Both the position numbers and the translations under genes were made by a program. A DNA stretch of 64,000 nucleotides from Rhodococcus sp. SGAir0479. GTDB taxonomy: Bacteria; Actinomycetota; Actinomycetes; Mycobacteriales; Mycobacteriaceae. Of the stretch, positions 7,013 to 43,867 are shown piece after piece (the first letter of the stretch is position 1; each line of letters opens with the position of its first letter). The notes beneath the pieces are model-generated. The model had not been told where the DNA came from. It was given only the letters and a program-made list of their open reading frames with translations, and searched no databases. The stretch covers positions 3,348,001-3,412,000 of the forward strand of contig NZ_CP039432.1 in assembly GCF_005484805.1 (NCBI RefSeq). The letters are read 5' to 3'.

Positions 7013-7885
7013 ATGGAGTGGGCACTGTCGGGCGCGATGATCGCGCCCCGTGAGCTGATGGACCTCGCGCGCGTGGCCGACGAGGTGGGATTCGACATGC
7101 TGGCCATGCCGGACTCGGTGTTCTATCCCGAGACGGTGTCGGCGGACTACCCGTACTCGCCGGACGGCAAGCGGATGTGGTCGCCGGAGACGGCGATGCC
7201 GGATCCGTTCATCGCGATGGCCGCGATGGCCGCCGTGACGGAGCGCCTGCGCTTCTGCACCAACGTCCTCAAGCTGCCGTTGCGCGATCCGCTGCTCACC
7301 GCCAAGCAGGTCGCGACCATGGCGGTGATGTCGGACAACCGCGTCGCGATCGGCGTCGGACTGTCCTGGATCCCCGAGGAGTTCCGCTTCACCGGCACCG
7401 AGATGCGCACCCGCGGCGCCCGTACCGACGAGGCCATCCGCATCGTCAAGGCCGTCTGCGCCGGCGACGGCCCGCAGTGGGTCGAGTTCCACGGCAAGCA
7501 CTACGACTTCGACCGGTTGATGATCAGCCCGGCGCCGGACCGGCCGGTCCCGATCTACGTCGGCGGCCACAGCGAGCCCGGGTTGCGCCGCGCCGCCCGG
7601 TTCGCCGACGGCTGGATCTCCGTGAACACCGGCTCCGCGCAGCTGAAGGACGCGATCGGCCGGCTCACCGAGCTGCGCGCCGAATTCGGGCGCGCCGACG
7701 AGCCTTTCGAGGTGGACGCCTCCCCCACCGACGTCTCCGACATCGCCGGCTACCGCGCGCTGGCGGACATCGGCGTCACCCGGTGCCGCGTCACCCCGTG
7801 GCGGCTCTACGACGTCGACCCGTCGGATCCGCGGGCCCGTCTCGACGCCGTCCGCCGGTTCGCGGACGACGCCATCCACTCCTGA
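7013..7885 (+). CDS. LLM-class (luciferase-like) oxidoreductase, probably F420-dependent
   Basis: 290 residues with the luciferase-like monooxygenase fold: an N-terminal strand MEWALSG, LARVADEVGFDMLAMPDSVFY, an AMAAVTERLRFCTNVL segment (about residues 70-85), VAIGVGLSWIPEEF and a C-terminal PIYVGGHSEPGLRRAARFADGWI motif. In actinobacteria this subgroup generally uses coenzyme F420; FMNH2 use cannot be excluded. A -10-like TACGGT ends 6 nt before the ATG and there is no ribosome-binding site, so the transcript looks leaderless. It closes the catabolic island; a long palindrome separates it from the convergent importer operon. Confidence 0.85.
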   Translation: MEWALSGAMIAPRELMDLARVADEVGFDMLAMPDSVFYPETVSADYPYSPDGKRMWSPETAMPDPFIAMAAMAAVTERLRFCTNVLKLPLRDPLLTAKQVATMAVMSDNRVAIGVGLSWIPEEFRFTGTEMRTRGARTDEAIRIVKAVCAGDGPQWVEFHGKHYDFDRLMISPAPDRPVPIYVGGHSEPGLRRAARFADGWISVNTGSAQLKDAIGRLTELRAEFGRADEPFEVDASPTDVSDIAGYRALADIGVTRCRVTPWRLYDVDPSDPRARLDAVRRFADDAIHS

Positions 7886-7895
7886 CCGTCGGAAC

Positions 7896-7958
7896 CCCTG
7901 AACGGGAATTCACGGCACGGTTTCGCGAGCGAAGCGTGCCGTGAATTCCCGTTCAGGG
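7896..7958. repeat. Long dispersed palindrome, solo copy (family A)
   Basis: Perfect 24-bp arms at 7896-7919 and 7935-7958, each containing GAATTC, with an additional inner TTCGC-GA-GCGAA stem at 7922-7933. Nearly the whole 63 bp is self-complementary. Close copies lie at 12904-12966 and 13943-13997. It sits between convergent genes, where it could act as a bidirectional terminator, but another copy lies upstream of a gene, so termination is not its only context. Confidence 0.92.
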
Positions 7959-7971
7959 TTGGGAGCGGCGT

Positions 7972-8691
7972 TCAGACGCGGCCGAAGTACGCGTCCCGCA
8001 GCACCGCGATGTCGTCGATCTCCGACGCCGGCGAATCCATCACGACCTTCCCGATGTCGAGAACGGTCACGTGGTCGGCCACGCTCATCGCGGCCTCGAC
8101 GGCCTGCTCGACGAGGAGGACGGCCAGCCCGGTCTCCTTGAGCAGCTGCACCCGCTCCATCACCTCGTTGACGATGACCGGGGCCAGGCCGCCGGACGGC
8201 TCGTCGAGCAGCAGCAGCGCCGGGTTCGACATCAGTGCCGCACCGATCGCCAGCATCTGCTGCTGGCCCCCGGACATCGACCCCGCCAGCAGCTTCCGCT
8301 TCTCCCCGAGGATCGGGAACATCTCGTAGATGCGCTCGACGTCGGGGCCGAGCGCACTGCGCCGCATCCTGCGGGTGTAGCCGCCGAGCAGCAGGTTCTG
8401 CTCGACGGTCTGCTTGTGGAAGACCCGCTTGCCCTCCTGCACGTAGGCCATTCCGCGGCGCACCCGCTGGTGGGCGGCGACACCGGAGATGTCCTGCCCG
8501 TTCATCTCGATGGTGCCCCCGTGCACCTTGTTCAGCCCGGAGATCGCGCGCAGCGTGCTGGTCTTGCCGGCACCGTTGCGCCCCAGCAGCGCGGTGACCC
8601 GGCCCGGGAAGACGTCGAACGAGACGTCCCACACCACCCGCAGGTCACCATAACCGGACTGCAGATTCTTCACGCTCAGAACCGGTTCCAT
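7972..8691 (-). CDS. livF: ABC transporter ATP-binding protein, LivF type
   Basis: 239 residues. Walker A is GRNGAGKT, the Q-loop region is AYVQEGKRVF, the signature is MSGGQQQM, Walker B is LLLLDEPSGGLAP and the switch histidine is replaced in LLVEQAVE (VEQ, as usual for LivF). It is one of the two ATPases of a branched-chain-type (HAAT) importer. Its ATG overlaps the stop codon of the LivM-LivG fusion gene as TGATG, so it is the last gene of a four-protein operon reading 12632 to 7972. A long palindrome follows its stop codon. Confidence 0.93.
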   Translation of the reverse strand: MEPVLSVKNLQSGYGDLRVVWDVSFDVFPGRVTALLGRNGAGKTSTLRAISGLNKVHGGTIEMNGQDISGVAAHQRVRRGMAYVQEGKRVFHKQTVEQNLLLGGYTRRMRRSALGPDVERIYEMFPILGEKRKLLAGSMSGGQQQMLAIGAALMSNPALLLLDEPSGGLAPVIVNEVMERVQLLKETGLAVLLVEQAVEAAMSVADHVTVLDIGKVVMDSPASEIDDIAVLRDAYFGRV

Positions 8692-10514
8692 CACTTCGCC
8701 CTCTCCAGCTCGGCCGCCGCGCCGCCGTCGGGATCGACGCCGAGGTATTCGCTGAGCACCCGCGGGTGGTGCTCGATCTCCGCAGGCGGACCCGCGGCGA
8801 TGACCTCGCCCTGCGCCAGCACGACGATGGTGTCGGCGAGCGAGAGCACCAGACGGAAATTGTGCTCCACCAACAGGACCGTGGCTCCGGCGTCGCGCAG
8901 TGCCCGGATGAGCACCGACAGCCGCACCAGTTCGTCCTCGTCCATGCCCGACGCGATCTCGTCGAGCAGCAGCACACGCGGTTCGGCGATCACGGCGCGT
9001 GCCACCTCGAGCATGCGCCGCATGCCCAGCGGCAACGACGTCGCCACTTCGTTGCGCAGGTGCGACATGCCGACGAGCTCGAGCACCCGCTCTGCCTCGG
9101 CGACGTCGGCCCGGGCGACCCGGCGGAAGCCCGGCAGCCGCAGGATCGCCGACAGCATCGAGGCCCGGTCGGTCATGTACCGGCCCGACGCGACGGCCTC
9201 GAGCACGGTGACGTTCTCGGGGATGTTCGGCGTCTGGAACGTGCGGGCCACGCCCTCGCGCGCCACCCGGTGCGACGAGAACGTCTGGACCTCGGTGTCG
9301 CCGATGACGATGCGTCCGGCGTCGGCGGTGTAGAAGCCGCACACCATGTTCAGCAGGGTCGTCTTGCCGGACCCGTTGGGCCCGATCAGCGCGGTGACCT
9401 GTCCGGCCTCCGCGCGCAACGTCGCCGCCTTCAGCGCCTGGTTGCCGCCGAACGCCTTCGAGATGCCGTCGACCTCGAGCGGGGCACCGGCGATGGGCGC
9501 CACGACGGGCACCTCGTTCGGGTCGCGCGGCGCGGGCCGCTCCACCACACCGATGCCGGCCTTGCGGTCCAGGCGGGCCGCCAGGTTCCGGAAGACCTTG
9601 GTGAGCCCACCGGAGAGCAGGACGCCACCGAGGATGAGGAACCCGCCGTAGAACAGCAGCGAGTACTCCTGGAACGCCGTCGACTGGTTGGGGCCGAACT
9701 GCATGATGGCCGCACCGATCACGGCGCCGTACACGCTGGCGGAACCACCCAGGATCGACGCCGCCAGCACCGCGGTCGCGAACGTGAACCCGAACGTCTC
9801 CGGGGAGATGTACAGGTCGGTGTTCGCGAACAGGGCGCCCGCGAGGCCCGCGGGCAGCGCGCCGATCGCGTAGCCCAGCAACTTCATCCGGTACACCGAC
9901 ACGCCCTGGGACTGCGCCAGCACCGGCGACTGCTTGAGCGTGCGGAACGCGATGCCGTGCCGCGAGACCACGAGGTTGCGCATCACCACGAACCACAGGA
10001 TCGCCACGCCGACGACGACGTAGTAGATGTCCTTGTCGACGTCCTGCCCCAGCAGCGTCGGCGGTTCCATGCCCGACAGGCCGTTGCGGCCGCCGGTGTT
10101 GCCGCCGAAGATCGCCAGGATGTCCGGCACCAGCAGGATCAGGAAGAACGACGTCATCGCCAACGACCAACTTCCCAGCCGCAGACCGGGAATGCCGGTG
10201 ACGATGCCCACGACCAGCGCGACCGCACCGGCCGCGACCAACTGCAACAGGATCTCGGTGTGCCCGGCCTGGGAGAGCAGGCCGGCCGTGTAGGCACCGG
10301 CCGCGTACATCGCGGCCTGGCCCAGCGCCAGTTCACCCGCGTACCCGAGGCTGAGGTTGAGGCCGCTGACGACGAGCGCCAGGATGCACGCCAACTGCAG
10401 CTGCCGGGTGTTGGTGGCGTCCAGGCCGAGCATCGGCGCGAAGAACACCACCGCCCCGAACACGAGCGCGAAGATCCAACTGGGGATCGCGCGCAGAGTT
10501 CGCCAGATCTGCAT
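8691..10514 (-). CDS. Fused LivM permease and LivG ATPase of a branched-chain-type ABC importer
   Basis: 607 residues. Residues 1 to about 320 form the LivM-type permease with around nine membrane segments and the GLNLSLGYAGELALGQAA signature. After a linker, residues from about 345 form a LivG-type ATPase: Walker A GPNGSGKT (about 380), RTFQTPNIP, Walker B VLLLDEIASGMD and the switch His in VEHNF. The ABC signature is degenerate (SLPLGMRRM instead of LSGGQ-like). Both proteins are usually separate; fusion is known in some actinobacterial HAAT systems. The start lies 2 nt after the permease gene stop. The cargo could be an amino acid, amide or aromatic acid; the nearby catabolic genes do not decide it. 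Confidence 0.92.
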   Translation of the reverse strand: MQIWRTLRAIPSWIFALVFGAVVFFAPMLGLDATNTRQLQLACILALVVSGLNLSLGYAGELALGQAAMYAAGAYTAGLLSQAGHTEILLQLVAAGAVALVVGIVTGIPGLRLGSWSLAMTSFFLILLVPDILAIFGGNTGGRNGLSGMEPPTLLGQDVDKDIYYVVVGVAILWFVVMRNLVVSRHGIAFRTLKQSPVLAQSQGVSVYRMKLLGYAIGALPAGLAGALFANTDLYISPETFGFTFATAVLAASILGGSASVYGAVIGAAIMQFGPNQSTAFQEYSLLFYGGFLILGGVLLSGGLTKVFRNLAARLDRKAGIGVVERPAPRDPNEVPVVAPIAGAPLEVDGISKAFGGNQALKAATLRAEAGQVTALIGPNGSGKTTLLNMVCGFYTADAGRIVIGDTEVQTFSSHRVAREGVARTFQTPNIPENVTVLEAVASGRYMTDRASMLSAILRLPGFRRVARADVAEAERVLELVGMSHLRNEVATSLPLGMRRMLEVARAVIAEPRVLLLDEIASGMDEDELVRLSVLIRALRDAGATVLLVEHNFRLVLSLADTIVVLAQGEVIAAGPPAEIEHHPRVLSEYLGVDPDGGAAAELERAK

Positions 10515-10516
10515 GG

Positions 10517-11374
10517 CTACACCACCCGTTCCTTCACCGTGCCGAACAGTCCGGCGGGCTTGACCATGAGGATGACGATCAGCACCACGAACACCGCGAT
10601 GTTGCTGTACTGGCTACCCGCCCACAGCGCGGTGAACGATTCGACCAGTCCGACGGTGAGACCACCGATGAGCGCGCCCGGCAGCGAACCGAACCCGCCG
10701 ATGGCCAGCGCCACGAAGCCCTTGAGCGCCAACGCGGCGCCGAGCGTCGCGACCGCGAACGTCTTGGGCCCCACGAACAGGCCCAGGACACCGGCGAGCG
10801 CGCCGGAGAAGGCGAACGCGCCCATCGCGATCCGGCGCACGTTCACCCCCCGGAGCATCGCCGCCTCCCGGTCCTCGGAAACGCCCATCAGCGCGAGACC
10901 GGTCATGGTCCGCTTGCTGAGCTGTCCGAGCCCGATCACCAGCACGATCGAGAGCACCAGCAGCGCGATCTCCACCGGATAGGTGCGACCCCCGAGGATG
11001 GTGATGGGGTCGTTGGAGCCGAAGAACGGAACCGCGAGCGGCTCACTGCCCCAGATCAACTGCGTCGCCCCGTTGAGCAGCGTCGCCGCGCCCAACGTGG
11101 TGACGAGTTGGTTCTGGTGGTCGGCCACCGGCCGGATCGCGACCATCTCCTCGACGGCCGCGAGGATCATCACCGTCACGGTCGCCATGACGGCGACCAC
11201 CAGCACGGGCAACTCCAGCGTCACCAGACCGGTGTAGGCCACGAACGTGCCGACCATCATCAACTGTGCCTGCGCGAAGTTGAACGTGTTGGACGAGACG
11301 AACACGATGTTGTAGCCGATCGCGACGAGCACGTAGACAGCGCCGAGGGCGAGCCCCGACCACAGCATGGTCAC
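10517..11374 (-). CDS. livH: ABC transporter permease, LivH type
   Basis: About 285 residues with eight or so hydrophobic segments. The early GLALGAVYVLVAIGYNIVF and SSNTFNFAQAQLMMVG segments are characteristic of LivH; GFGSLPGALIGGLTVGLVES is the conserved C-terminal loop. It pairs with the permease half of the next gene to form the membrane channel. Start: GTG at 11374 fits best because GGAGG lies about 8 nt upstream; GTG at 11383 overlaps that site and ATG at 11368 is further away. The gap to the binding-protein gene is 43 nt. Confidence 0.9.
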   Translation of the reverse strand: MTMLWSGLALGAVYVLVAIGYNIVFVSSNTFNFAQAQLMMVGTFVAYTGLVTLELPVLVVAVMATVTVMILAAVEEMVAIRPVADHQNQLVTTLGAATLLNGATQLIWGSEPLAVPFFGSNDPITILGGRTYPVEIALLVLSIVLVIGLGQLSKRTMTGLALMGVSEDREAAMLRGVNVRRIAMGAFAFSGALAGVLGLFVGPKTFAVATLGAALALKGFVALAIGGFGSLPGALIGGLTVGLVESFTALWAGSQYSNIAVFVVLIVILMVKPAGLFGTVKERVV

Positions 11375-11417
11375 AGCCGGCACCTCCCTCGCGCCGATGC
11401 AACGACGATCACCGCGC

Positions 11418-12632
11418 TCATGCCTGCGCGTTACCGAACTGGCCGTTGACGACCTTGGTGGGCGCGATGAACTTCATCTCGTCCTGGGTGGGGTTGGGGC
11501 CGTGGTTCTCGGCGGTGAAGTTGTAGCGCGACAGGAAGGCCGTCTTCGCGTTCTTCTGCACCTCTTCGGTTTCCAGGGCCTCGGCCAGCTTCTCGGCGTC
11601 GGTGGTGGTGCCGGCCTTCTCGGCGGCGGCGGCCACCAGCGGGAACGCGTCGTAGTTGTCGGCGATGATCAGCGTCGACGAGATGGTGCCCAGCGACGCC
11701 ATGGTGTCGACCATCTGGTTGACGGCCTCGTTGTTCGGGTCGTAGACGGTGCTCGTGAAGACCTGCGTGACGAGGTTCTTCGTCTCGGGCGTACCCAGCA
11801 CGCCGTTCGGCGGCTCGTTGGCGACGAGGCTGGTGCTCGACACCGACGTGTTGCCGATCAGCGGCACGTCCCAGCCCAGCCTCTGCATGCTCTGCAGGAC
11901 GTAGCCCAGCGGCGCACCGTAGGCGTCCAGCGCGAGAGCCTTGGCGCCGGCGTTCTTGAGCGACTGCAACTGCGCGGTCATGTCGAGTGCGGTCGCCTCG
12001 TACTCCTCGTTGCCGACCTGCTTCAGACCCGACTTCTCCAGCGCCGCCGTCATCTCCTTGCCGAACAGCTCGCCGTACGCGGTGCTGCCGTGGATGACGC
12101 CGATGTCGTCGTAGCCCTTCTCCTTCGCGTGGCCGGCGATGCCGCGCGCGTTGTCGGCGGCACCGGGCGCGAGGTCGAAGTTGAGCGGGAACTTCGACGG
12201 ATCCGTCGAATCCGGGGTGGGCGCGACGTTGAACGAGAGGATGTCGTTCTGCTTGAGGATCGGCAGCACCGCGGCACCGATCGACGAGGGCCCGGAGTTG
12301 AGGACCAGGTCCGGCTTCTGCTTGTTGATGGCCTCGCGCACCTTGGTCACCGCGACCGTGGCGTCGCCGGCGTCGTCGACGACCGTCAGCTCGATCTGGC
12401 GGCCGCCGATGCCGCCGGCCTGGTTCTGCACCTCGACACCGGCCTTGGTGGCCAGGATCGACGTCTGCGCATTCGCGGCGAGCACACCCTGCGCACTGAT
12501 GCCGCCCGTGACGAGCACCCGGTAGGGCTGGTCCGCCCCGCCGGACTCGCCCGAGTCGGCGGAACCACACGCCGCGAGAGTCAGCACCGACGCGGCGACG
12601 GCCGCAACGAGAACTGGACGCCGATTTCCCAT
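11418..12632 (-). CDS. Substrate-binding lipoprotein of the branched-chain-type importer
   Basis: 404 residues. A lipoprotein signal peptide ends in LTLAAC with the lipobox cysteine at about residue 22, then a short acidic/serine linker. The rest is a type I periplasmic-binding fold with VLVTGGISAQGVLAANAQ, LVLNSGPSSIGAAVLP and the SFNVAPTPDS region. It captures the solute outside the membrane and delivers it to the permeases. ATG at 12632 has AGGAGG 8 nt upstream. It is the first gene of the operon; a perfect palindrome at 12666-12687 lies in its leader. The ligand is not predictable by eye. Confidence 0.92.
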   Translation of the reverse strand: MGNRRPVLVAAVAASVLTLAACGSADSGESGGADQPYRVLVTGGISAQGVLAANAQTSILATKAGVEVQNQAGGIGGRQIELTVVDDAGDATVAVTKVREAINKQKPDLVLNSGPSSIGAAVLPILKQNDILSFNVAPTPDSTDPSKFPLNFDLAPGAADNARGIAGHAKEKGYDDIGVIHGSTAYGELFGKEMTAALEKSGLKQVGNEEYEATALDMTAQLQSLKNAGAKALALDAYGAPLGYVLQSMQRLGWDVPLIGNTSVSSTSLVANEPPNGVLGTPETKNLVTQVFTSTVYDPNNEAVNQMVDTMASLGTISSTLIIADNYDAFPLVAAAAEKAGTTTDAEKLAEALETEEVQKNAKTAFLSRYNFTAENHGPNPTQDEMKFIAPTKVVNGQFGNAQA

Positions 12633-12665
12633 GACTGTCCTCCTAGGACACCCGTAAGACACACC

Positions 12666-12687
12666 GAACCAAGCGCTCGCTTGGTTC
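12666..12687. promoter_or_regulatory. 22-bp palindrome, candidate TetR-type operator of the importer operon
   Basis: GAACCAAGCG at 12666-12675 and its exact complement at 12678-12687, separated by CT. Palindromes of the CAAGCG-N2-CGCTTG type are common TetR-family sites. It lies 34 nt upstream of the binding-protein start codon. No TetR gene is present in the window, so the regulator would be encoded elsewhere. Confidence 0.6.
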
Positions 12688-12903
12688 CGTCGGACACGAG
12701 AAGGCCCGGGAGGGAAGCGCTTTGCCGCGCTTCACCCGCCGAACACAACCCGACGAGCCCCCGTTCGGGACCGAACGTTTGCTCGAGCCGGGAGCTTATG
12801 AGTGTGACGCAGATAACGTCAAACGGAACTACCACGAGACGGGAAAGTCACCGAAGAATCTCCGGTGGCGCTACACTCCGCCCCGCCCGCGCCTCCCTCG
12901 AAA
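12688..12903. other. Intergenic region upstream of the importer operon
   Basis: The 440-nt gap at 12633-13072 holds no gene that can be supported. On the minus strand a -35-like TTGACG (12822-12817) and a -10-like TAAGCT (12798-12793) are separated by 18 nt and could drive the importer operon with a leader of about 150 nt. A short inverted repeat AAGCGC-N6-GCGCTT lies at 12715-12732. The TetR-like palindrome and a family A palindrome flank this stretch. Confidence 0.4.
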
Positions 12904-12966
12904 CCCTGAACGGGAATTCACGGCACGGTTCCGCGATCGAACCGTGCCATGAATTCCCGTTCAGGG
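12904..12966. repeat. Long dispersed palindrome (family A), left side of the DUF559 gene
   Basis: 28-bp arms at 12904-12931 and 12939-12966 with one mismatch and a 7-nt loop. The arms share the core GAACGGGAATTCACGGCACG with the copies at 7896 and 13943. It lies 106 nt before the start codon of the DUF559-type gene and is not between convergent genes, so a pure terminator role is unlikely. Confidence 0.92.
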
Positions 12967-13072
12967 CTTGGGCGGGGGCGGGTTGTCCACAGGGGCGGGG
13001 ATTTCCACAGGACCGCTCGGGCGGGGTGGGAGCGGGCAATGAACGTCGGACCGCCGGGCGAGCGTGCGGGAC

Positions 13073-13936
13073 ATGACTGCACTTCTCGTACCGTTCCGCG
13101 GCGCCGCGGCGCTGGACCGGGGGCTGGTGAGCCGACGCGGGCTCCGGCGCCACTACGTCCGCCTCTACCCGGACACCTACGTGCACCGCGATGTCGAGGT
13201 CGACGCCCGCACCCGCGCCCTCGCCGCGTGGCACTGGTGCGGCGGCCGCGGAGTCCTGGCCGGGGCGTCGGCCGCCGCGCTGTGGGGCGCCCGGTGGATC
13301 GACGGCGCCGCGCCCGGTGTGCTCGCGTCCACCGCACATCTGCGTCCTCCGCCCGGGATCACGCTCTGGCGCGACGACGTCCCGGCCGACGAGGTGACCA
13401 CGCGGTCCGGTGTGCGGCTGACGACACCGCTGCGCACCGCGTTCGATCTGGGACGCCGCCTCGACCACGATCCCGCAGTCGAGTCCGTCGACGCGCTCTA
13501 CCACGCGACACGGATCACCCGGGACGAGCTCGTCGCGTTCACCGCGCAACACCCCGGGGAGCGGGGAATCGTGCAGCTACGCAACGTGATCGATGACTCC
13601 GACGAGGGCGCGGAGTCGCCGTGGGAGACCCGGACCCGGCTCGCGCTCGTCCGCGCCGGGCTGCCGCGCCCCGACACCCAGGTGACCATCCGCGACGCGG
13701 GCCGCTTCGTCGGCCGGGTCGACATGGTGTGGGAGCGGTGGCGCGTCGTCGTGGAGTACGACGGCGACCACCACTTCGAACCCGAACAGCGCAACCGTGA
13801 CGTCGAACGGTGGAACGCGCTCGAGGCCGCGGGGTGGCGGGTGATCCGAGTCAAGGCCCGACAGCTGCTCTACGGCCGGCAGACCCTGATCGCGCAGATC
13901 ACGCGGGTGCTGCGGGCCGCCGGCGCACCGGTGTGA
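13073..13936 (+). CDS. AbiEi/DUF559-like protein with endonuclease-type fold
   Basis: About 287 residues. The N-terminal part (LVSRRGLRRHYVRLYPDTYV, then VLAGASAAALWGA) resembles the AbiEi-antitoxin-like region of actinobacterial DUF559 proteins. The C-terminus has the DUF559 restriction-endonuclease-like core: VVVEYDGDHHF, then NALEAAGWRVIRVKARQL, which in the Vsr/PD-(D/E)XK fold carries metal-binding and catalytic residues. Such proteins are frequent in mycolic-acid actinobacteria and no function is established that I know of. It has no toxin partner. A family A palindrome lies 106 nt upstream and another begins 7 nt after the stop codon. Start uncertain: ATG at 13073 or GTG at 13064, neither with a good ribosome-binding site. 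Confidence 0.82.
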   Translation: MTALLVPFRGAAALDRGLVSRRGLRRHYVRLYPDTYVHRDVEVDARTRALAAWHWCGGRGVLAGASAAALWGARWIDGAAPGVLASTAHLRPPPGITLWRDDVPADEVTTRSGVRLTTPLRTAFDLGRRLDHDPAVESVDALYHATRITRDELVAFTAQHPGERGIVQLRNVIDDSDEGAESPWETRTRLALVRAGLPRPDTQVTIRDAGRFVGRVDMVWERWRVVVEYDGDHHFEPEQRNRDVERWNALEAAGWRVIRVKARQLLYGRQTLIAQITRVLRAAGAPV

Positions 13937-13942
13937 AACGCC

Positions 13943-13997
13943 GAACGGGAATTCACGGCACGCTTTCGGGGAGAAAACGTGCCGTGAATTCCCGTTC
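13943..13997. repeat. Long dispersed palindrome (family A), right side of the DUF559 gene
   Basis: Perfect 20-bp arms at 13943-13962 and 13978-13997, a 15-nt loop with an inner TTTC/GAAA pairing, and the same arm core as the other two copies. It begins 7 nt after the DUF559 stop codon and ends 12 nt before the hspR stop codon (convergent genes). Confidence 0.92.
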
Positions 13998-14009
13998 AGG
14001 AGTGGGAGG

Positions 14010-14417
14010 TCAGCGCTCGCTGCGCGGCTTCCACACGACGATCGCGTTGCTGCGCGGAATGGGCACCAGGTCGCGGCGGTAGCTGGCGTGAACCTTCGCG
14101 ATCTCCGCGGCCAGCTCGTTCACCCGGTTCTGCAGCGCCTCCACCTGGTTGGTCAGTTCGATGATGCGCTTGATGCCGGCGAGGTTGACGCCCTCGTCCT
14201 GCGAGAGCCGCTGCACCTCGCGCAGCAGCGCCACGTCGCGCGGCGAGTACCGGCGTCCGCCCCCGGTCGTGCGGTGCGGAGTCACCAGGCCGAGCCGGTC
14301 GTAGTTGCGCAGCGTCTGCGCATGCATGCCGGCGAGTTCGGCGGCCACCGAGATCACGAACACCCGCGCGTCGGGGTCCGGCGTGGACTCCGACTGGTTA
14401 CGCACCTTGTCGCTCAT
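14010..14417 (-). CDS. hspR: HspR, MerR-family heat-shock repressor
   Basis: 135 residues. The MerR-type helix-turn-helix is seen in FVISVAAELAGMHAQTLRNYDRLGLVTPHRT and GGGRRYSPRDVALLREVQRLS, followed by a coiled coil (about residues 85-110) and the HspR-type basic C-terminal tail ending KPRSER. HspR represses the dnaK operon by binding inverted repeats (HAIR), using DnaK as co-repressor. It is the last gene of the dnaK-grpE-dnaJ-hspR operon, 32 nt after dnaJ, so it represses its own synthesis. Two HAIR-like sites are present upstream of dnaK. Confidence 0.95.
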   Translation of the reverse strand: MSDKVRNQSESTPDPDARVFVISVAAELAGMHAQTLRNYDRLGLVTPHRTTGGGRRYSPRDVALLREVQRLSQDEGVNLAGIKRIIELTNQVEALQNRVNELAAEIAKVHASYRRDLVPIPRSNAIVVWKPRSER

Positions 14418-14449
14418 GCTGGTTCACCCGTTCGATCGGTTGGGGACCG

Positions 14450-15616
14450 TCAGGCCCCGGCCCATCCTGCCCGCGGATCGAATCCGCTGGCCTTCTCCGC
14501 CTCCAGGTACGCCTGGAGGGCCTCTCGCGCCGGGTCGTCGAGCTTCTGCGGAACCGCGACCTCGACGGTCACGAGCAGATCCCCGGCACCGCCGTCGCGC
14601 TTGGGCACGCCGCGCCCACGCACCCTGAGAACTCGTCCGTTCGCGGTACCGGCCGGGATCTTCACGCCCACACGCCCGTCCAGCGTCGGAACCGACAGCG
14701 TCGTACCCAGCGCCAGTTCGCCGTAGCTCACCGGGACCACGACCGTGAGGTCGTCCCCGTTGCGCCCGAAGACCTTGTCGGGACGCACGTGCACGGTGAC
14801 GTACAGGTCGCCCGACGGTGCACCCCGCAGCCCGGCCTCGCCCTGACCGGCCAGCCGGATCCGGGTGCCGTCGCTGACGCCGGACGGCACCCGCACGGTG
14901 ATGGTCCGGGTGCGGTTGGTGACGCCGTTGCCGTGGCAGTCCGGGCACGGGTCGTCGATGATGGAGCCGGTGCCGCGGCAGTCGTCGCACGGCTCACTGA
15001 AGCCGAACGCGCCCTGGTTGCGGCTGACGATGCCGGTTCCGTTGCAGCGCGGGCACACTCGCGGGCTGGTGCCGGGCTTGGCGCCGCTGCCGTGACACGT
15101 GGTGCACGGCGACGGGCTGGTCAGCCGCAGCGGGACGGTGACCCCCTGCGCGGCCTCACGGAACTCGAGCGTGGTCTCGGTCTCGACGTCGCTGCCGCGC
15201 CGCGGACGCGAGCTCGCGGTCGTGGTGCGGCCGCCGCCGCGGTTGAACAGGCCGCCGAAGAGGTCCCCGAGACCGCCCTCCCCGCCGGCGCCGCCACCGA
15301 AGATGTCGCCGATGTCGAAGCCGCCGCTGAAACCACCGGCGCCGCCGCTGTATCCGGCGCCGGGGCCGAAGCCGCCGCTCGCGAACAGGCGGCGGGCCTC
15401 GTCGTACTCCTTGCGCTTGGCCGGATCGGACAGCACGGCGTGCGCCTCGCTGACCGCCTTGAACCGGTCCTCGGCCTTGGTGTCACCGGGGTTGGCGTCG
15501 GGATGCAGATCCCGGGCCAGCTTGCGGTACGCCTTCTTGATCTCGTCGGCGGACGCATCGGAGGAGACGCCCAGTTCCTTGTAGAAGTCCTTCTCGATCC
15601 ACTCCCGTTGGCTCAC
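14450..15616 (-). CDS. dnaJ: DnaJ co-chaperone (DnaJ1 type)
   Basis: 388 residues. The J domain carries HPD in [12 protein letters not shown], then a Gly/Phe-rich linker (about residues 75-125). The zinc region has four CxxCxGxG-type motifs ([32 protein letters not shown]) and a C-terminal substrate-binding domain follows. DnaJ stimulates DnaK ATPase and delivers unfolded clients. GTG at 15616 is chosen because AGGAGGAGG lies 6 nt upstream and the protein then begins [16 protein letters not shown], the usual DnaJ1 start; an in-frame codon at 15682 would add an unsupported extension overlapping grpE. It lies 34 nt after grpE. Confidence 0.95.
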
Positions 15617-42664: not shown

Positions 42665-42744
42665 GGTTGTCGCAGGGGTTGTGCAACCGTCGCAGGGGTT
42701 CTCCGTACGGACAAGCCCTGCGACCGTCGCAGTAGCCCTGCGGC
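42665..42744. repeat. Palindromic array (family B), left side of the second DUF559 gene
   Basis: Two direct units of GTCGCAGGGGTT (from 42665 and 42687), a central TACGGA at 42706-42711, then two inverted units beginning CCCTGCG (42716 and 42736). GTCGCAGGG and CCCTGCGAC form a perfect 9-bp stem around the centre. The same arrangement recurs at 43785-43867. It lies 98 nt before the gene start. Confidence 0.85.
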
Positions 42745-42842
42745 AGTGCGCGTCGTCCCCAGCCCACCCGTCGTCCACAGCTCCACCGAAAGCGCTGGGG
42801 AGCACGGCTGAACCGGCGCGGGCGTCGGTGAGGATGACGGCC

Positions 42843-43784: not shown

Positions 43785-43867
43785 TGTCGCAGGGGTTCGC
43801 CCGGTGTCGCACGGGTTGTCAGTACGGAATCACCCTGCGACACCGACACAACCCGCGCGACAACCCC
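43785..43867. repeat. Palindromic array (family B), right side of the second DUF559 gene
   Basis: Two direct units (TGTCGCAGGGGTT at 43785, GTGTCGCACGGGTTGT near 43804), a central TACGGA at 43823-43828, then two inverted units (CCCTGCGACACC at 43833 and ACAACCCGCGCGACAACC near 43849). It begins at the base after the DUF559 stop codon and ends 6 nt before the S9 peptidase stop codon. Confidence 0.85.

Follow-up and report, generated by a model that had tools for sequence, protein, structure and literature searches.

A solo DUF559 nuclease gene and its two matched palindromes in Rhodococcus: a candidate cassette with a REP/RAYT-like layout

In the chromosome of Rhodococcus sp. SGAir0479 (genome G000, 4.97 Mb in two contigs), a gene encoding a DUF559 protein lies between two copies of one long palindrome. 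DUF559 is a widespread domain whose role is largely unknown, and the arrangement raises the question of whether gene and palindromes form a single unit and what the protein might do to its flanking DNA. The locus was analyzed within a window of 64,000 nucleotides (C1:3348001-3412000). The bracketing described in the initial annotation was found as described, with both palindrome copies in place (table 1), and the gene was correctly called as DUF559-type: residues ~218-283 of the 290-residue protein match Pfam DUF559 (PF04480) with an E-value of 2.2e-9 and 37.6 bits, above the curated cut-off of 20.6. The gene is flanked upstream by a divergent periplasmic-binding-protein gene (livJ) and downstream by a convergent MerR-family gene (hspR); gene families were assigned from domain matches and the short names livJ and hspR are inferred from them.

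Table 1. Positions of the palindromes, genes and boxes discussed, numbered from the first nucleotide of the window
Feature	Position	Strand	Remarks
Luciferase-like gene	7013-7885	+	Flanks the third R1 palindrome
Third R1 palindrome	7900..7954	.	Between the convergent luciferase-like gene and livF-like ABC gene
livF-like ABC gene	7972-8691	-	Flanks the third R1 palindrome
R1 palindrome, upstream copy	12908..12962	.	20-nt arms (one mismatch), 15-nt centre
TTGTCCACA box	12983..12991	+	Between the upstream palindrome and the DUF559 start
Second box, TTTCCACA	13002..13009	+	Its TCCACA begins 18 nt past the TCCACA of the first box
Solo DUF559 gene	13064..13936	+	290 codons; AbiEi-like N-terminal half, Vsr-like PD-(D/E)XK C-terminal domain
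R1 palindrome, downstream copy	13943..13997	.	Perfect 20-nt arms, build as in the upstream copy
MerR-family gene beside dnaJ (hspR by inference)	14010..14417	-	3' end towards the DUF559 gene; neighbour outside the cassette

The upstream copy of the palindrome, termed R1, is located within the divergent gap between the livJ-like and DUF559 genes, where it adjoins no gene's 3' end, and its pairing extends to 12905-12965 when folded as single-stranded DNA. It ends 101 nt before a GTG at 13064 and 110 nt before an ATG at 13073; the ATG is the likelier start because three close orthologues align from residue 4, which is this ATG. The downstream copy lies between two convergent stops, 6 nt from the DUF559 stop (13936) and 12 nt from that of hspR. 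Within the window, the 16-nt arm core has seven matches with up to three mismatches against 1.33 expected, a number reached in 0 of 100 shuffles, and each of the three window copies folds as single-stranded DNA at -30 to -33 kcal/mol (z -10.5 to -11.7). No T-run follows the stem in any of these three copies, and none of them is among the four terminator-like matches between 7800 and 14100, in a scan that covered T-tailed terminators with loops of 3-8. A search of Rfam over 7500-14500 returned nothing above the gathering score, only sub-threshold look-alikes of microRNA hairpins.

Taken alone, R1 is a terminator-like or REP-like element. The genome of strain SGAir0479 contains 13 copies by pattern search and 14 by covariance model (E below 1e-6), and the arm GAACGGGAATTCACGGCACG is not particular to the DUF559 gene, since 12 of the 14 copies are not at any DUF559 gene. 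All 14 genomes of the genus contain R1 (2 to 28 strand-matches each), as do 27 of 201 genomes of the bacterial family, the genus counted in. The genomic context was assessed for 86 sites made up of listed matches and retrieved loci, three of them outside the genus (one retrieved site, L140, was not recovered). Among these listed sites, 38 are in convergent gaps, 35 in tandem and 10 in divergent gaps, two are inside called genes and one is at an edge, and the distance to a stop codon is 30 nt or less in 64 out of 84. This distribution over convergent, tandem and divergent gaps (38/35/10) differs from that of background intergenic regions (52/113/55; chi-square p 5.7e-6). Pairing of the R1 stem is retained despite changes on both sides in seven out of 26 pairs, a value reached in 7 of 500 shuffles; in distant copies the two-sided changes are in the middle of the arm and the outer GAACGGGA and inner GCAC are mostly kept. 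R1 is found 8-54 nt past the hspR stop in 11 out of 14 species, whether or not the DUF559 gene is present. The three exceptions are G008, where a gene has been inserted at this position, and G011 and G013, which have no covariance-model match there. The gene inserted in G008 (L068 9308-11581) is large and lies between hspR and a DUF559 remnant, with the nearest R1 far from hspR. Elsewhere in the region, G010 and G012 (L070 and L072) carry a CAGCTGAAGGG-type palindrome in the gap between the luciferase-like gene (LLM) and livF where G000 has R1, and G012 has a palindrome of this type near hspR, in the hspR-livJ gap, too.

Two simple roles of R1 can be discarded: it is a dispersed family and not a private signal of the window DUF559 gene, and it is not a general mark of DUF559 genes, as 16 out of 17 other loci are without it and the remaining one has a weak match (E 0.0014). 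Across 20 DUF559 loci of the genus, the upstream regions show long palindromes of unrelated sequence types, and most of the loci without R1 have such palindromes in the positions that R1 takes here, ahead of the start and at the stop. A second type, R2 (GCGGTTACTGC...GCAGTAACCGC), brackets the second DUF559 gene of the SGAir0479 genome (4417264-4417980, broken frame); the only two exact copies in this genome, at C1:4417069 and 4418062, are those that bracket the gene, and the total is six sites plus one weak site, with more in G010 and G012. R2 also brackets DUF559 paralogues of G009, G010, G012 and G002, with some copies mismatched, and these genes share R2 although their loci and neighbouring genes differ. 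R2 is also present in five genomes that have no R2-type gene, and some non-DUF559 genes lie between R2 copies. A third type, R3 (GAACGGGCGGTTTTC...), brackets DUF559 paralogues of G002, G008, G011 and G012. Identical dispersed copies of R2 in G010 were considered as proof of palindrome mobility and rejected, as they are inside duplicated segments. The number of palindrome copies is higher in genomes with the corresponding gene or its remnants (one-sided p 0.0016 for R1 and 0.021 for R2, kinship ignored).

The association between DUF559 genes and palindromes was quantified by a match score, defined as the best ungapped match between the 350 nt upstream and the 150 nt downstream of a gene, with a score of 16 or more counted as a matched pair. 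Gene starts were chosen from the reading frames and are approximate. Within the genus, the score is at least 16 at 16 out of 19 loci and 14 at one, and two have broken frames; L026 was left out because its contig ends 88 nt upstream. For the bacterial family, where at least 76 out of 121 sampled genomes have a DUF559-family match with an E-value of 1e-7 or better, 70 loci were taken from the listed matches (30 supplied and 40 chosen, a non-random sample in which close relatives were not thinned), and two were dropped for short frames. A matched pair flanks 36 out of the 68 remaining genes compared with 0 out of 59 and 5 out of 299 control genes (36/68 against 5/299: odds ratio 66, Fisher p 1.2e-25). 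Genes closer than 400-500 nt to a DUF559 gene did not serve as controls, and the 299 controls include genes from loci selected for R1, which favours matches among them. Four of the five matching controls are the second luciferase-like gene, LLM2, flanked by R1 in four species (one per species), and one is another gene. When only genes with a hairpin score of at least 10 on both sides are considered, the two hairpins match in 14 out of 16 DUF559 genes and in 4 out of 24 controls, all four of them LLM2. At the level of the phylum, 8 out of 28 loci score at least 16, two of these being low-complexity repeats, and matched pairs are present at 5 out of 16 genes of 250 codons or more (one of the 16, L235, comes from the same family). 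The association is therefore one between the DUF559 gene family and a flanking palindrome pair, not between the gene and the R1 arm. The enrichment anticipated in the initial annotation thus holds for palindrome pairs but not for the arm itself, and the REP/RAYT-like layout that it had proposed extends to many kinds of DUF559 genes. The flanking palindromes are mostly 37-64 nt long, and a centre motif common to all of them is not distinctive (30/52 against 7/16 control hairpins). The upstream palindrome ends a median of 58 nt before the start (IQR 46-92; 57 loci, approximate starts). The regions upstream of the genes also contain at least one TCCACA/TGTGGA box in 17 out of 20 genus DUF559 genes (L023-L045) compared with 19 out of 189 other intergenic regions, and in 21 out of 68 genes of the bacterial family compared with 3 out of 59 controls; we take these boxes to be similar to DnaA boxes.

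A homology search downstream of the 68 family genes and the 19 genus genes identified a conserved partner gene of ~220 codons that separates the flanked from the unflanked DUF559 genes. It follows 19 out of 29 unflanked genes, none of the 39 genes with a score of at least 14 and none of the 19 genus genes. Conversely, no partnered gene (0/19) is flanked by a matched pair compared with 36 out of 49 partner-free genes (39 out of 49 at a score of 14), leaving 10 out of 49 partner-free genes without a match of 14 or more. The partner overlaps the DUF559 gene by 4-19 nt in 18 of the 19 cases (L155, L156, L172, L205, L218 and 14 further loci), and no Pfam family was found above cut-off in four partner genes tested. 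Possibly, the DUF559 gene and its partner form a two-gene system.

The sequences of the palindromes were compared with those of the proteins for a flanked set of 52 genes, which does not include L028 and L039, whose frames are broken. A palindrome is shared (score of at least 18) by 35 out of 39 pairs of genes with a protein identity of at least 70%, by 6 out of 162 pairs at 50-70% and by 0 out of 1125 pairs below 50%, although many pairs in the highest identity class may consist of orthologues at a single site, so that the co-variation is inflated. Palindrome similarity and protein identity are correlated (Mantel r 0.52, 0 of 2000 permutations). The palindrome thus follows the relatedness of the proteins and is particular to a branch of the protein family. 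Over long distances, palindromes of different loci no longer resemble each other, whereas the two within a locus continue to match. A test within the genus gave no support for recent homogenisation of the two copies: across four species for each type, the two R3 copies of a cassette show 5.0 differences compared with 4.7 and 5.8 between orthologous copies, and the two R1 copies 12.0 compared with 13.8 and 9.2. The copies within a cassette thus resemble each other no more closely than orthologous copies do, and the palindrome pair is old.

At the hspR locus, an orthologue of the window DUF559 gene is intact in four species (G000, G002, G004 and G007) and broken in five (G001, G003, G005, G006 and G008), and none was found at this place in G009-G013. 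The upstream palindrome is present in all eight species that retain the gene or a remnant of it on a contig extending far enough, though degenerate in G004 and G005; in G004 the gene is intact and the palindrome has decayed. The gene-free loci of G010 and G012 contain a single R1 palindrome, after hspR. The gene and its second palindrome therefore vary together across species. The initial annotation had held that an arm found throughout the genome with no enrichment near DUF559 genes, or a gene and palindromes that never vary together, would speak against a cassette: R1 does occur genome-wide, but the co-variation between gene and second palindrome is there. A tree of the neighbouring genes groups G000 with G010 and G012 (support 0.907), a position compatible with loss as well as with repeated gain of the gene, which thus look alike at this locus. 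Nearby, LLM2 is located between two R1 copies in G002, G003, G005 and G008 (L062, L063, L065 and L068), G000 has one R1 and no LLM2, and G004 has LLM2 without an adjoining R1.

A hot spot for DUF559 cassettes is the gap between convergent genes for a Bax-inhibitor-1-like protein and a thiolase, compared in all 14 species. The gap is filled by a cassette of ~1.1 kb in five species: four cassettes are of the R3 type and directed to the thiolase gene, and one (G009) is of the R2 type and directed to the Bax-inhibitor-1-like gene. The other nine species are gene-free, with two palindromes in seven of them, three in G000 (one R1 and one R2-like among them) and one in G005. That cassettes of two subfamilies occupy one site in opposite orientations implies independent insertion or replacement.

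Beyond the DUF559 match, the C-terminal stretch of the window protein (~218-283) has a sub-threshold match to the Pfam MTES_1575 nuclease, and DUF2726 is also matched. The N-terminal half matches the PADLOC AbiEi profile (E 2.9e-11, residues 39-167), and Pfam AbiEi_1 reaches only E 0.026, which is below its cut-off; NCBIfam gave no match. The best hit of a PDB profile search is 3hrl (E 2.5e-5), with PvuRts1I also found. Eight residues (S182, E185, D217, E228, D230, G231, H234 and D243, counted from ATG 13073) are invariant in 52 out of 52 flanked and in 29 out of 29 unflanked proteins. Six of these, E185, D217, E228, D230, H234 and D243, are putative catalytic residues and are intact in the window protein; as unflanked DUF559 proteins conserve them with equal strictness, these residues do not distinguish the flanked class. 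Y36 and A67 in the N-terminal half are invariant in the flanked set only. An AlphaFold model based on an input of two sequences was of low quality (mean pLDDT 38.8). Phages and plasmids contain almost no relatives, one in 50,697 phage records and seven in 72,556 plasmid records, all below 60% identity, and none of 26 pattern matches in viral contigs was confirmed as a relative.

Based on these results, the most probable reading, with a probability of roughly 0.55, is that the DUF559 gene forms a single unit with its two palindromes, a palindrome-nuclease cassette of REP/RAYT-like layout built on a Vsr-like nuclease. The AbiEi-like half would recognise the unit's own palindrome, a role suggested by the binding of inverted repeats by AbiEi proteins (PMC7319586), and the Vsr-like domain would nick or cut the palindrome in its hairpin or cruciform form. 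Palindromes might then be copied or exchanged by repair or recombination at the cleaved site, so that a cassette could be inserted at a resident palindrome or be deleted and leave a solo palindrome behind. Since the palindrome is symmetric, a cassette could enter it either way round, which fits the hot spot. Solo copies would persist at gene ends, where a long hairpin may be harmless or even useful as a bidirectional transcript end.

The main alternative to such a cassette is that the palindromes are ordinary bidirectional hairpin terminators of the genus, with the DUF559 gene merely located between two of them and its nuclease unrelated to them. The enrichment of R1 in convergent gaps and close to stop codons, its position past hspR regardless of the DUF559 gene, the stem pairing kept through two-sided changes and the different palindrome at the same LLM-livF place in G010 and G012 would all be expected of terminators. 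R1 may also resemble TRIT, the repeated intrinsic terminators of actinobacteria, which are conserved hairpins after gene ends; to our knowledge, matched gene-specific palindrome pairs are not part of TRIT. Two terminators, however, need not match, yet those of DUF559 genes with two hairpins mostly do and those of controls do so at one locus only (LLM2). The upstream window copy in a divergent gap with no adjoining 3' end and the lack of T-runs after the window copies fit poorly as well, and the lack of matched pairs at partnered DUF559 genes is left unexplained. Terminators thus explain the positions of the solo copies but fail to account for the matched pairs that flank partner-free DUF559 genes, and as a full explanation they are unlikely, if deserving of serious attention. 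A passive cassette, in which the palindromes are long repeats for RecA-dependent homologous recombination and the DUF559 gene is a passenger like LLM2, would account for the LLM2 genes between R1 copies in four species and the single R1 without LLM2 in G000, for the other genes between R2 copies and for the gene-free hspR loci of G010 and G012 with one R1. Varied passengers would then be expected, but among 299 controls only LLM2 and one other gene match, against 36 out of 68 DUF559 genes, and the palindrome sequence tracks the DUF559 protein, making a passenger role improbable.

Two further possibilities concern the protein itself. As a free-standing homing nuclease, it would cut gene-free palindrome alleles, and repair would copy the cassette into them. 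Filled and gene-free alleles do coexist among species, and the PDB profile search includes a weak match to the mobile intron protein 3r3p (E 0.95) beside 3hrl. A homing gene, however, normally splits its target, whereas here whole palindromes are found in both filled and gene-free alleles and solo palindromes lie at many unrelated loci without the gene, so that homing has the least to recommend it of all the readings. Scarcely more probable is autoregulation, in which the palindromes would serve as operators to which the AbiEi-like half binds, repressing its own gene, perhaps through a DNA loop from one copy to the other. The PADLOC match and the short distance between upstream palindrome and start agree with it, as does the description of AbiEi and Rv2827c as binding inverted repeats in their promoters (PMC7319586), but it leaves unexplained the downstream copy next to the stop, the dispersed solo palindromes near unrelated genes and the invariant nuclease residues.

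The cassette shares with REP/RAYT systems (REPtrons, REPINs) a nuclease gene flanked by palindromes, dispersed gene-free palindromes, a palindrome that differs with the enzyme and a location near 3' ends; dispersed solo palindromes of the same type were found for R1 and R2, the two types that were counted. RAYT enzymes are described as processing and co-evolving with their REPs (PMC8266576), and REPs as located, for the most part, no more than 20 bp from a 3' end in convergent gaps and, in unidirectional gaps, close to the 3' end of the upstream gene (PMC3733652). The differences are that REP/RAYT systems use a HuH (Y1) tyrosine enzyme compared with a Vsr-like PD-(D/E)XK nuclease and an AbiEi-like half here, that REPs are 20-40 bp in length and the palindromes of DUF559 genes longer, that the copy number here is low (14 R1 sites) and that R1, the type aligned, has no GTAG or CGTC foot: in 13 aligned copies the foot of the stem is GAACGGG (one CGACGGG), mostly after CCT, GCT or CCC. 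No HuH tyrosine transposase was among the profile matches of the DUF559 protein (Pfam, PADLOC, NCBIfam and PDB). With no HuH enzyme and no GTAG foot in R1, the cassette is not a member of the REP/RAYT group but is laid out like one. The AbiEi-like region recalls the AbiE type IV toxin-antitoxin system, in which AbiEi binds inverted repeats (PMC7319586), with the differences that no AbiEii (DUF1814) toxin gene adjoins the DUF559 gene, that a nuclease domain is fused to the region and that palindromes are present on both sides and dispersed; a plain antitoxin role, already doubted in the initial annotation, fits poorly. Caulobacter VsrA likewise has a DUF559 domain of the PD-(D/E)XK superfamily, and a DNA-damage response without the cytosine methylase is reported to depend on it; its proposed role is to repair mismatches at methylated sites, and the passages cited make no mention of flanking palindromes (PMC12907096). 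In the open-access literature searched, no paper was found that links DUF559 with flanking palindromes.

A matched pair that changes with the protein provides a candidate substrate for each protein, which can be ordered as an oligonucleotide, making the function of DUF559 directly testable. More broadly, and more tentatively than for the single unit, partner-free DUF559 proteins with an AbiEi-like half may be the enzymes behind a second world of mobile palindromes that parallels REP/RAYT but relies on unrelated chemistry, in which each subfamily would recognise and cut its own palindrome and spread solo copies and cassettes to gene ends across the Actinomycetota, supplying many of the long hairpins between convergent genes. 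If palindromes are indeed moved by DUF559 proteins, REP-like elements have originated on two or more occasions, with unrelated nucleases, and some hairpins between convergent genes of actinobacteria would be traces of selfish or domesticated elements, not terminators that evolved in place.

Three minor observations concern other repeats. In a further DUF559 subfamily of the genus (L034, L035, L041, L042, L044 and L045), palindromes of the CGCGTTTTGCGCACTT type precede the gene, and half-sites like them are found close to the stop. In another family of actinobacteria, a short DUF559 gene (L230) is flanked on either side by TGTTTCACGTGAAACA palindromes that resemble ParB sites. In the window itself, two long imperfect inverted repeats at 42668-42745 and 43785-43862 both contain TGTCGCAGGGGTT and possibly represent another repeat family.
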